From Nitrospirota bacterium (GTDB lineage: Bacteria; Nitrospirota; Nitrospiria; SBBL01; JAADHI01): 57,544 bases of DNA. The first letter of the stretch is position 1. Every line of letters starts with the position of its first letter. Under the pieces are notes generated by a model. The model was not told where the DNA came from, did not search any database, and saw nothing but the letters and a program-made list of their open reading frames with translations. Shown one piece after another: positions 1-57,544 of the stretch. The position numbers and the translations under genes are program-made. Location of the stretch: the NCBI GenBank assembly GCA_029261165.1, contig JAJDBV010000031.1, positions 1 to 57,544 of the forward strand, written 5' to 3'.

Positions 1-287
1 GAACTGGTTGTTGAGCGAGTGAAAAACTCCCGGCGACTTGTGCGCACTGCCATATGGTCTTCCTGAGTGCTTCTGAGGAGGGACACATTGATGCGGTGCT
101 TCAAGATTTGAAGACGAAGAGCATCCTGACGGTAGGCGACATGAAATCGTTTGCGCGTCGTGGCGGCATCGTTTTCTTTGTGAGAAGAAAAAACACGGTT
201 CGACTCGAAATCAACCTCCGTGCTGCGGAACGGGCGGGATTAAAGATCAGCGCAAAACTGCTGGAAGTTGCAAAGATTGTGAAGTAA
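1..287 (+). CDS. YfiR-family periplasmic protein, 3' part, apparent frameshift
   Basis: This is the C-terminal part of a YfiR/DUF4154-type protein. The family acts in the periplasm and, in YfiR itself, holds a CHASE8-domain inner-membrane partner inactive. Visible family signatures are the Cys-His start of the first strand (CHMVFLS, codons 48-68), the TVGD followed by FARRGG, and the EINLRAAERAGLKISAKLL end. The conserved frame has a stop at 12-14. The next frame is open from base 1 and reads a plausible upstream segment (VERVKNSRRLVRT). The gene therefore seems to change frame near 40-50, through a missing base, a sequencing error or a real frameshift. The rest lies outside the window. The stop is 8 bp before the kinase gene, so co-transcription is likely. 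Confidence 0.75.
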
Positions 288-295
288 GGGACCCG

Positions 296-1897
296 ATGTC
301 ATTTATTCAAGATTTACCGATCAAGCAAAAATTGGCCCTGATTGTGACCCTCACAAGCTTTACCGGGCTGCTGGTGTCCGCTCTGATCCTCTATGCGTAT
401 GACAAGAAGATGCATCGGCAGGAGATGAGGGAGGAGTTGGCTGTTCTGGGAGAGGTGATCTCGGATCGGAGTACGGCCGCATTGGTTTTTAGTGATCCGG
501 ATCTTGCCAGAGAAAATCTCGCGTCGCTCAGCGCAAGCTCGTCTATTGTCGCAGCCTGTATCTATTCAGAGTCAAGTACAATATTTGCGACTTATACGCG
601 TGGCCAATCAGACGAAACACCTGCAGGCGGAAGGTCTTGCCCCTCTGAGCCATCCGGGGGAGGCCATCGTTTCGGAGAGAACAGCCTGCATCTGTTTCAG
701 GACATTGTTCTGGATGGAGCGCAGATCGGCACGATTTACATCCGTGCCGATCTGCGTGAGATCAATGCCCATATGACCCAGAATCTCCTGATTGTCATAT
801 CGGTGATGTTTGTTGCCAGTCTGGTTGCGTTCCTCTTCTCTTTGAAATTACAGGGCCTGATCTCCAGTCCGATTAGGCATCTTGCCGATAGGGCAAACCT
901 TGTTGCGACACGGAAAGACTATTCTGTCCGCGCCGTCAAAACGGGTCGGGATGAACTGGGCCTTCTGACAGACCGATTCAACGCCATGCTTGAACAAATT
1001 GAACGGCAACAGACGGACCGTGACAAGTCAGAAGAAGAGTTAAGACTGCACCGCAATCATCTGGAAGGGCTGGTGCGCGTCCGGACAGAAGAGCTATACT
1101 TAAAAAACAAGGAACTTGGTCAGTCCCAGGAGGCCCTCACCTCACTCCTTGAAGATGTCAACGAATCGAGGGTCGAACTGGATGAGGCGAACCGACAACT
1201 GAAGGAACTGGATGACCTGAAAACGATGTTTATTGCCTCGATGTCTCACGAGCTGCGTACCCCTTTGAACGCGATTATCGGCTTTACCGGGATTATCCTG
1301 CAAGGAATGTCGGGTGAGATCAATGCGGATCAGAGGGCGCAACTGAAACGGGTCTATGTTTCAGCGAAACACCTCTTGGGACTGATCTCAGAGATTATTG
1401 ATATCTCGAAGGTTGAGGCCGGCAAGTTGGAACCCTACCTGCAGACTTTCTCTCTGTATGGGGTGATCAAGGAAGCGATCTCCAATCTGAAAAACCAGAT
1501 CAAGGAGAAGGGGCTTGGCATTGAAACAGACATTCCTCCCTACATCCAATTGAAGAGTGATCGTACCCGGCTCCTCCAGTGCCTTCTGAATTATCTCTCA
1601 AATGCGGTGAAGTTTACTGACCGGGGAAAGATATTTATTATGGCCAAAGAAGTGAACAATATGATCGAAATACGCGTGAAGGACACCGGCGTTGGTATTC
1701 AGGACGTAGATATTCCAAAACTCTTTTCCCCCTATTCCCGTATTGATACAGGGCAGAGGCCCAGGCCGCTCGGTACGGGACTGGGTCTTTATCTGACCCA
1801 AAAACTGACCGATGAAGTTCTGAGAGGCTCGGTCGCATTGGAGAGTGAATATGGAAAGGGGAGCACCTTTATTTTGAAGGTGCCGGTAAATATTTAG
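296..1897 (+). CDS. CHASE8-like sensor histidine kinase
   Basis: A membrane-bound histidine kinase of 533 residues. Order: transmembrane segment at about 13-34, a periplasmic CHASE8-like region with the LAVLGEVISDRSTAALVFSD signature, second transmembrane segment at about 163-183, HAMP at about 184-237, coiled coil at about 240-310, then HisKA with phospho-acceptor His318 in SHELRTPLN. The ATPase domain has an N box near residue 430 (NYLSNAVKF) and glycine boxes DTGVGI and GTGLGL. It directly follows the YfiR-like gene. In known systems YfiR controls a CHASE8 diguanylate cyclase, so here the same type of periplasmic regulator may control a kinase (inference). A single receiver protein follows 32 bp downstream and is the obvious phosphate acceptor. 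Confidence 0.9.
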   Translation: MSFIQDLPIKQKLALIVTLTSFTGLLVSALILYAYDKKMHRQEMREELAVLGEVISDRSTAALVFSDPDLARENLASLSASSSIVAACIYSESSTIFATYTRGQSDETPAGGRSCPSEPSGGGHRFGENSLHLFQDIVLDGAQIGTIYIRADLREINAHMTQNLLIVISVMFVASLVAFLFSLKLQGLISSPIRHLADRANLVATRKDYSVRAVKTGRDELGLLTDRFNAMLEQIERQQTDRDKSEEELRLHRNHLEGLVRVRTEELYLKNKELGQSQEALTSLLEDVNESRVELDEANRQLKELDDLKTMFIASMSHELRTPLNAIIGFTGIILQGMSGEINADQRAQLKRVYVSAKHLLGLISEIIDISKVEAGKLEPYLQTFSLYGVIKEAISNLKNQIKEKGLGIETDIPPYIQLKSDRTRLLQCLLNYLSNAVKFTDRGKIFIMAKEVNNMIEIRVKDTGVGIQDVDIPKLFSPYSRIDTGQRPRPLGTGLGLYLTQKLTDEVLRGSVALESEYGKGSTFILKVPVNI

Positions 1898-55785: not shown

Positions 55786-56334
55786 TCAGAGGCGGGGTTC
55801 TTCAAAAACCTGCCGATACCAGAGGAGAGCAAGGAGGGTCTTGCTGTCCACTATTTTCCCGGAGAGCCCCATCTGGAAGACCTCCTCAAGTGGAAGCGTG
55901 ACAAGCTCCAAAAACTCTTCGGCATCGGCATGTGCCTCCGTGCTTGGTGCCAGATCCCGGCCCAGGTAAATGGCAATTTTCCCGGTTGAAAAACCCACGG
56001 AGTGATAGTAGGTGAATAGAAAATCGAGTTTGTTGGGGACCATTCCGATTTCTTCAATCGTTTCCCGCCGGGCGGTTTCTAATCGATCTTCGTCCGGTTC
56101 CAGGAGGCCGGCCGGAATTTCCAACGTGACCTGACGAATTGCCGGCCGGTATTGTCTGACAAGGTTTACCCTCTGGTCCTGATCGATTGGAAGAACCCCG
56201 ACGGCATCAGGCGGAGAGACGATCTCCCGCAGGGCCTCTGTCCCATCCGGAAGCCGCACAATATGCTCCTCAGTGCGGAGATAGTGTCCCTGATAAACGA
56301 TTTTTTTTCGGATCAGCTCTTCTTCCAGGTCCAT
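55786..56334 (-). CDS. Nudix hydrolase, ADP-ribose pyrophosphatase type
   Basis: A 182-residue Nudix hydrolase. The Nudix box runs from Gly76 to Met98 with all the acidic residues (Glu82, Glu91, Glu94, Glu95). Before it, VNLVRQYRPAIRQVTLEIPA is the usual sequence of ADP-ribose pyrophosphatases (NudF-like), the most likely activity. ATG 56334 has AAGGA upstream; an upstream in-frame start would remove the normal spacing. Cytoplasmic. Confidence 0.9.
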   Translation of the reverse strand: MDLEEELIRKKIVYQGHYLRTEEHIVRLPDGTEALREIVSPPDAVGVLPIDQDQRVNLVRQYRPAIRQVTLEIPAGLLEPDEDRLETARRETIEEIGMVPNKLDFLFTYYHSVGFSTGKIAIYLGRDLAPSTEAHADAEEFLELVTLPLEEVFQMGLSGKIVDSKTLLALLWYRQVFEEPRL

Positions 56335-56400
56335 CCAAAATCCTTTTTTATTGAACCGACAAAGTGGCCGTATCATAAAGGATTACAGCCTCTTTTTCCA

Positions 56401-57544
56401 CTAAAACGGCTGGCCCGCGATGAGATAGTAGTGTGGTTTATCTTCATCGGCAATTGGAGAGTCGATCGGGACGGCGATATCAAAACGAACAATCGTTGGA
56501 TAAAGTCCAAAAACATCTACGAAAAATCGAAGACCGGCACCCATGTCGGTCTTGTACTGACTCGGCCGAAAGATATTACGCGAATCCGTGACCGTCCCGG
56601 CGTCGCCAAAAAAAGCGATCTGCAGAGTACGCTGGCTTGCCAAGCCAAAAAACTGAATGTCTGTCTCACGTAATAAGGGGAAGCGGTATTCAATGGAGAA
56701 AAGCGCCATGTTTTCTCCTTGGAAAGCCATTGTCGTATATCCCCGCATTCCCGAGCTTCCCCCCAGGAAAAATCGATTATTTTTGAAAAGTTTTCCAAAT
56801 GATTCACCAAGAAAGATACGGGTACTGATTTCATGATGGTTGGAGAAAGAGAAAATTCGACGTAGATCGAGTTCAACAAAGATAGAATTGTCAAAAGATC
56901 GATCTGTAAACTTTTGATTGTAGTGAAGGCGTGCACTGAGCTTAGGGTAAGTTCCCGTCAGACGCTGGATATTTTTCTCAAGTAGGGGAATATCCGGATA
57001 ATTCATCTCATATCCGAGATTGATGATGCCTGCGGATTCTTCTGGAAGCATCCCCTGAGCCGTTTTACGGTTTTCGTGTGTGATGCCTGTTGAAAGAATG
57101 TGTCTATTTTTTAGGGTCTGCGTGTAATCAAGCTGGGAAACGGTTTCGATGTCAGACCGTGAGAAGAAAAGTCGAATCCAGTTTTTCGTATCGTAAGTGC
57201 GCTGAAAGAGAAGACCGGCCCGATAGCTCAGAAAGCGAGATTGAAAATCATAGTTCACCGAGAAATCATTGAGCAGGACTTTCCATGAAGGAGGGGAGCG
57301 ATTATTTAAACGGTTTGAGTCGCTTGAAAGTTTGTGAGGGTCGAGCGCGACCGTCTTGATACGGGAGGGTGTCGTTACAACGACTTCGTGCGACTCTCCG
57401 GCACCATTCCAAATCATAGGAATTTCCGTCCCATTTTTTTCACTAAGGACGATTTGTAGCGGTTCGATTCCTTTTCCGCGTTTTTTTATGAGAATTCGGG
57501 TCTGGAATTTGTCATGATCCTTTGTGCGTCGGATGTCCTCAATA
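56401..57544 (-). CDS. M1-peptidase-like C-terminal domain fused to an Omp85-type barrel (5' end outside window)
   Basis: The frame is open to the window edge, so the start lies beyond 57544; at least 380 residues are visible. The first 95 or so resemble the C-terminal beta-sandwich after the catalytic domain in M1-family peptidases (VVTTPSRIKTVALDPHKLSS, then DSNRLNNRS). The rest is a beta-barrel of BamA/surface-antigen type, with alternating strands, the loop motif GGSSGMRGYTTMAFQGENMA and a terminal Phe. It should sit in the outer membrane. No catalytic HExxH is visible because that part would lie upstream. It is downstream-oriented toward the Nudix gene, 66 bp away. Confidence 0.75.
   Translation of the reverse strand, partial: IEDIRRTKDHDKFQTRILIKKRGKGIEPLQIVLSEKNGTEIPMIWNGAGESHEVVVTTPSRIKTVALDPHKLSSDSNRLNNRSPPSWKVLLNDFSVNYDFQSRFLSYRAGLLFQRTYDTKNWIRLFFSRSDIETVSQLDYTQTLKNRHILSTGITHENRKTAQGMLPEESAGIINLGYEMNYPDIPLLEKNIQRLTGTYPKLSARLHYNQKFTDRSFDNSIFVELDLRRIFSFSNHHEISTRIFLGESFGKLFKNNRFFLGGSSGMRGYTTMAFQGENMALFSIEYRFPLLRETDIQFFGLASQRTLQIAFFGDAGTVTDSRNIFRPSQYKTDMGAGLRFFVDVFGLYPTIVRFDIAVPIDSPIADEDKPHYYLIAGQPF

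Follow-up and report, generated by a model that had tools for sequence, protein, structure and literature searches.

An M1 aminopeptidase fold with a lost active site is joined to a predicted Omp85-type barrel in Nitrospirota

Omp85 proteins build the outer membrane. Almost all of those studied recruit their substrates or partners via POTRA domains. The N-terminus of an Omp85 barrel lies in the periplasm, and the solved barrels have 16 strands. In M1 peptidases, the groove binds the N-termini of peptides.

A survey of the Omp85 superfamily published in 2014 by Heinz and Lithgow described ten subfamilies, whose members carry POTRA, patatin, WD40 or PF00149 'Metallo' domains or consist of a bare barrel, and included no M1 or peptidase form (PMC4104836). 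Another layout is that of the patatin-Omp85 proteins, PlpD of Pseudomonas aeruginosa and FplA of Fusobacterium. In PlpD, the patatin domain was formerly regarded as secreted but has been shown to remain in the periplasm (PMC11116518). For Tma108, a yeast M1 homologue, binding of nascent chains via the substrate pocket has been proposed as the mode of action (PMC11266112). Here, we describe a protein family of Nitrospirota, known from metagenome bins at the organism level, that appears to combine elements of these systems.

The window, i.e., the whole stretch of 57,544 nucleotides that was analyzed, is the entire contig C25, one of the 89 contigs that make up a 2.9-Mb assembly. Its minus-strand frame at 56401-57543 ends with a stop at 56401-56403 and is open up to the contig edge, and the upstream part of the gene lies outside the window. 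A sequence-only reading of this DNA had proposed that the frame links an M1-type beta-sandwich to an Omp85 barrel, pointing to the strings SRIKTVALDP, SNRLNNRS and GGSSGMRGYTT. All three occur verbatim in the frame, and an AlphaFold model of the window fragment bears out the order of sandwich, then barrel. The features of the gene are as follows.

56401..57543, minus strand: 3' portion of the gene for pseudo-M1-Omp85, with 380 codons and a stop, still open where the contig ends
Contig C34 (locus L054), about positions 1-1499, minus strand: 5' part of the same gene, with an in-frame contig-end overlap of 63 bp
57343..57543, minus strand: C-terminal beta-sandwich of the M1-like region; fragment residues 1-67, ending in ...TVALDP (VELDP is still covered by the profile match with active M1 proteins); modelled with six strands
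57286..57342, minus strand: linker with a conserved SDxNRxNNR motif, between the M1-like region and the barrel
56404..57285, minus strand: predicted Omp85/TamA-type beta-barrel; 14 long strands in the model, nine of them ahead of loop 6 and five behind it
56731..56763, minus strand: GGSSGMRGYTT, the Omp85 loop-6 (V/M)RG(F/Y) motif; R267 and G268 invariant across the family
56596..56610, minus strand: FGDAG, the FxDxG motif, in the strand after loop 6 (residues 312-316); F312 and G316 invariant

As judged from sequence profiles and predicted structure, the barrel belongs to the Omp85 superfamily. Pfam matched the window fragment to Omp85 (PF01103, E=6e-10, 39.5 bits against a cut-off of 24) and to nothing else of weight, and a profile comparison of the barrel gave TamA at 1e-5. 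AlphaFold models the fragment (pLDDT 86.9) with a sandwich of six strands at residues 3-67 and then a beta-barrel whose best PDB matches, with E down to 4e-9, are TamA and BamA; a viral structure library added nothing of use. Like TamA and BamA, which are its closest solved barrels, the protein has a C-terminal Omp85-type barrel with the loop-6 RGY (here GMRGY) and FxDxG (here FGDAG) motifs of Omp85 barrels. Unlike them, it has an M1-like domain and lacks POTRA domains. Fourteen long barrel strands were found in this model and in that of a full-length relative described below, a number that may fall two strands short in the prediction. Since 14 is not the canonical 16, assembly activity of the BamA kind is not to be taken for granted.

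The missing upstream part was sought in the same assembly with the N-terminal half of a relative as query. This gave a single long match, on the minus strand, right where contig C34 begins. Where the frame in C34 runs out, it reads ...SIEYKRHTKDKHKIKTKNLIK; the window frame opens with IEDIRRTKDHDKFQTRILIKKRGKG. Window positions 57482-57544 and L054 positions 1-63 overlap over 63 bp, gapless and in frame, with 78% identity; at 12 of the 14 mismatched positions the C34 end has an A, and mismatches of this type are probably sequencing errors at the contig end and not divergence. C34 shares its gene order with intact genes from f5 and f9, two other families in the class. The two frames were taken as one gene. 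Its whole protein would carry a signal peptide (MRYMMPFLLLLLSLAITPPVQA) and be about 860 residues long.

Alternatively, the N-half on C34 and the barrel in the window might come from different strains or paralogues in a mixed bin. The low identity in the contig-end overlap would fit such a mismatch, as would the affinities of the two parts: the N-half is slightly nearer to a Manganitrophaceae-like family (f5, 45-47%) than to the family of its own lineage (f1, 40-45%), and the C-half shows the reverse. Still, we consider this extremely improbable, because the mismatches to A in one contig end have the look of sequencing error, each half has a single match in the genome, both halves share one frame in all intact relatives, and C34 shows the ancestral gene order of f5 and f9. 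Even if the halves were mismatched here, the fusion still holds in relatives.

The sequence-only reading had raised the possibility of an M1 domain upstream, as opposed to POTRA domains only. An M1 fold is indeed present in the same protein, and no POTRA domain was found in 20 members scanned with Pfam (E<=1). In these 20 members, Peptidase_M1 (PF01433) stayed below cut-off and the PF00149 domain was not found. The N-half is unnamed by both Pfam and NCBIfam, and its profile had no match in a sequence search of the PDB; the M1 assignment thus draws on hhalign, a reverse profile search and the fold. In hhalign, the family was compared with eleven active M1 proteins of the phylum, two of which come from the same genome as the window, and matched them with prob 99.4 and E 6e-22; the 458 matched columns span the N-terminal sandwich through to VELDP in the C-terminal one. 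In the reverse direction, the family profile retrieves active M1 proteins in other Nitrospirota genomes with E down to 4e-9, and the active Nitrospirota M1 proteins match F3, puromycin-sensitive aminopeptidase and LTA4H in the PDB. Finally, Foldseek matched the AlphaFold model of a full-length relative (pLDDT 82) to IRAP, tricorn factor F3 and ERAP1 in the PDB (E 1e-20 to 1e-18, about 575 columns). Together, profiles and model clearly assign the first 540-560 residues or so to an M1 fold, with a predicted N-sandwich, thermolysin-like helical domain and C-sandwich.

The family therefore resembles MEROPS family M1 (IRAP, ERAP1, tricorn factor F3, LTA4H) and the active Nitrospirota M1 proteins in fold, domain order and a length of about 540 residues. 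It differs from the active proteins in the fused membrane barrel and in the loss of HExxH, GAMEN/VENF and the catalytic-Tyr segment. Active relatives read VENF...GHExxHxWxGN...GNWxEGL, and the family reads LYQD...KRFHEASLAxGLxxLLWRE...WVIEGLA. The HExxH zinc site occurs in 0 of 29 members, as does a GAMEN-type motif (GxMEN or VENF). The catalytic-Tyr region has been replaced in the family. Active M1 relatives in the same genome and phylum retain HExxH. On this sequence evidence, the protein is a conserved pseudo-peptidase-Omp85 protein, and should not be the aminopeptidase anchored in the membrane by its own barrel that had been suggested for it.

Two residues of the region have been kept: the His before the helix (29/29 members) and the Glu of WVxEGLA (28/29), which could mark another metal or catalytic use. 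Together with the clear M1 fold, they are what might speak for an active outer-membrane-anchored M1 aminopeptidase that trims peptides by means of a variant zinc site, composed of the conserved His, this third-ligand-like Glu and a third, unrecognised ligand. However, HExxH is missing throughout, the general-base position after the conserved His varies (E, D, N, A or R), the other two catalytic segments are replaced, and hhalign aligns HExxH with residues just after the conserved His, i.e., with non-ligand residues. An active enzyme is very unlikely on these grounds. We also considered the 'HE' of KRFHEAS as a decayed HExxH. This is not certain, as hhalign places HExxH a few residues further on; the site is missing either way.

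Among 98 related genomes, 24 had a match, with frames mostly of 860-900 codons, and the full-length relatives are proteins of about 860-900 residues with an N-terminal signal peptide. Across Nitrospirota, the N-half profile had full matches in 18 of 396 genomes spread over the phylum, and the barrel profile had strong matches in 19 of the 396. The frames matched by the barrel profile are fusions with the M1-like half, or pieces cut by contig ends or a stop. The two halves thus occur together. An alignment search of GTDB contigs found 17 loci, all in Nitrospirota/Nitrospiria; the window fragment as a single-protein query against the same contigs found nothing. Named records with the gene belong to Ca. 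Manganitrophaceae, Ca. Troglogloeales, Nitrospiria and other Nitrospirota bins. Two families of the same class, f6, which is large, and f13, lacked pseudo-M1-Omp85 in the profile searches; the weak matches there were ordinary M1 proteins or other barrels. Plasmid records gave just one weak barrel match and one weak match to an M1 metallopeptidase.

Members thus occur in several families and at least two classes of Nitrospirota, so that the activity was either lost before these lineages diverged or never part of the fusion. The dN/dS ratio is about 0.08 in both halves in the closest pairs, where synonymous sites are unsaturated, and 0.2 in a more distant pair of family f11. As measured on these sequences, both halves are under strong purifying selection, and strong constraint after loss of the site implies that the M1-like domain has some other use. 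Single copies vary. In the Ca. Manganitrophus chromosome CP114561 (L040 7357-9940), the gene is broken into two overlapping frames, by a frameshift error or as a decaying copy, and is intact in the sister genome. Another genome (G116) has an in-frame TAG inside the M1-like half (L085 2580-2584). Genome G011 of family f5 has two gene copies, L046 and L042, which lie in different neighbourhoods and are clearly diverged from each other.

Compared with described systems, the protein is closest in plan to PlpD and FplA, which likewise have an N-terminal enzyme-fold domain, expected to be periplasmic, and a C-terminal Omp85 barrel. It differs from the patatin-Omp85 proteins in having an M1 and not a patatin fold and in lacking POTRA, and from PlpD, an active lipase, in its lost catalytic residues and in 14 predicted strands versus 16. 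The analogy with PlpD drawn in the sequence-only reading therefore holds for the layout of enzyme-like domain plus barrel; it does not imply surface display, as the PlpD patatin domain is periplasmic (PMC11116518). The 'Metallo' and 'WD40' subfamilies also carry a non-POTRA N-terminal domain on an Omp85 barrel, but theirs are PF00149 metallophosphatase-type domains or WD40 propellers (PMC4104836). Tma108 provides a parallel for an M1 fold proposed to bind and not to cut; that protein, however, keeps HExxH and is cytosolic, eukaryotic and free of a barrel. A search of the open literature on Omp85 or BamA joined with M1 peptidases returned nothing relevant, and unnamed database entries surely exist. 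From sequence and models, this would be a new domain architecture within the Omp85 superfamily, for which we found no published description. It would also be a bacterial, membrane-bound M1 pseudo-peptidase, and the sole M1 example in a review of pseudo-peptidases is eukaryotic (PMC11266112). If an inactivated aminopeptidase fills the POTRA position, it offers a natural test of what an Omp85 periplasmic domain must do.

From Omp85 topology and the precedent of PlpD, we infer that the M1-like domain should sit in the periplasm. Having lost its zinc site, it probably holds on to protein chains at the membrane rather than cleaving them. The reading we favor, at about even chances, is that of an exported outer-membrane protein, consisting of a Sec signal peptide, a dead M1 fold of about 540 residues and an Omp85/TamA-type barrel, in which a periplasmic domain for binding polypeptides or partners serves an auxiliary assembly or translocation factor. 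The signal peptide would export the protein via Sec, and the barrel would insert in the outer membrane. The dead M1 domain would then be periplasmic, placed at the barrel's inner mouth in the position that POTRA domains occupy in BamA and TamA, and would stand in for them. Its old substrate groove, or its surface, may hold segments of peptide or unfolded polypeptide, or a partner protein, beside the barrel, with outer-membrane or exported proteins as the clients of the factor.

The same genome has a separate POTRA-bearing BamA, and on its contig C17 (genome G000, 58981-62747, minus strand; L002, L102) a TamA-like Omp85 gene directly adjoins a TamB-family gene, likely a TAM pair. With BamA and this pair also present, pseudo-M1-Omp85 would be an auxiliary factor. 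The binding and the assembly or translocation role, the latter supported by no co-conserved partner, are less certain than the periplasmic location. A possible extension, which we hold tentatively, is that the family is an Omp85 subfamily old in Nitrospirota, in which a dead M1 domain replaced POTRA as the polypeptide-binding part of an assembly or translocation factor and the barrel was reduced to 14 strands.

Pseudo-peptidases often serve as scaffolds (PMC11266112), and the barrel is diverged, with 14 predicted strands. The protein may accordingly have a structural or scaffolding function in the periplasm, with the barrel a mere anchor, the dead M1 domain docking a soluble enzyme or envelope complex, and no part in assembly or translocation. 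This is less likely than the favored reading, in that loop-6 RG(Y/F) and FxDxG vary little or not at all, suggesting that the barrel has kept more than an anchoring function. A channel or transporter, whose barrel would let a small ligand, peptide or metal through and whose M1-like domain would capture or gate in the periplasm, seems improbable. The smaller Omp85-like barrel would suit it, and the lineage includes metal oxidisers (PMC9040806); but specific support is absent, the gene is also found in lineages of other classes, and the comparison for Mn oxidation found other genes, with no mention of Omp85 proteins.

Returning to the genomic context, the gene on C34 adjoins a divergently transcribed methyltransferase-like gene and nuo genes. 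Several families of the class have a methyltransferase-like gene and the nuo operon (L054 1695-14271) in divergent orientation beside the gene. Outside the class, a copy in a family of another class, read by eye, likewise adjoins nuoA/nuoB-like genes, which makes an old origin within the phylum probable. In relatives of the same family the neighbours differ. The gene order with nuo is a deep link, and the adjacent nuo and methyltransferase genes say nothing on function. On the other side, downstream in the window (55786-56376, minus strand), lies a putative Nudix hydrolase gene (ADP-sugar pyrophosphatase type by its Nudix box) that is probably unrelated.
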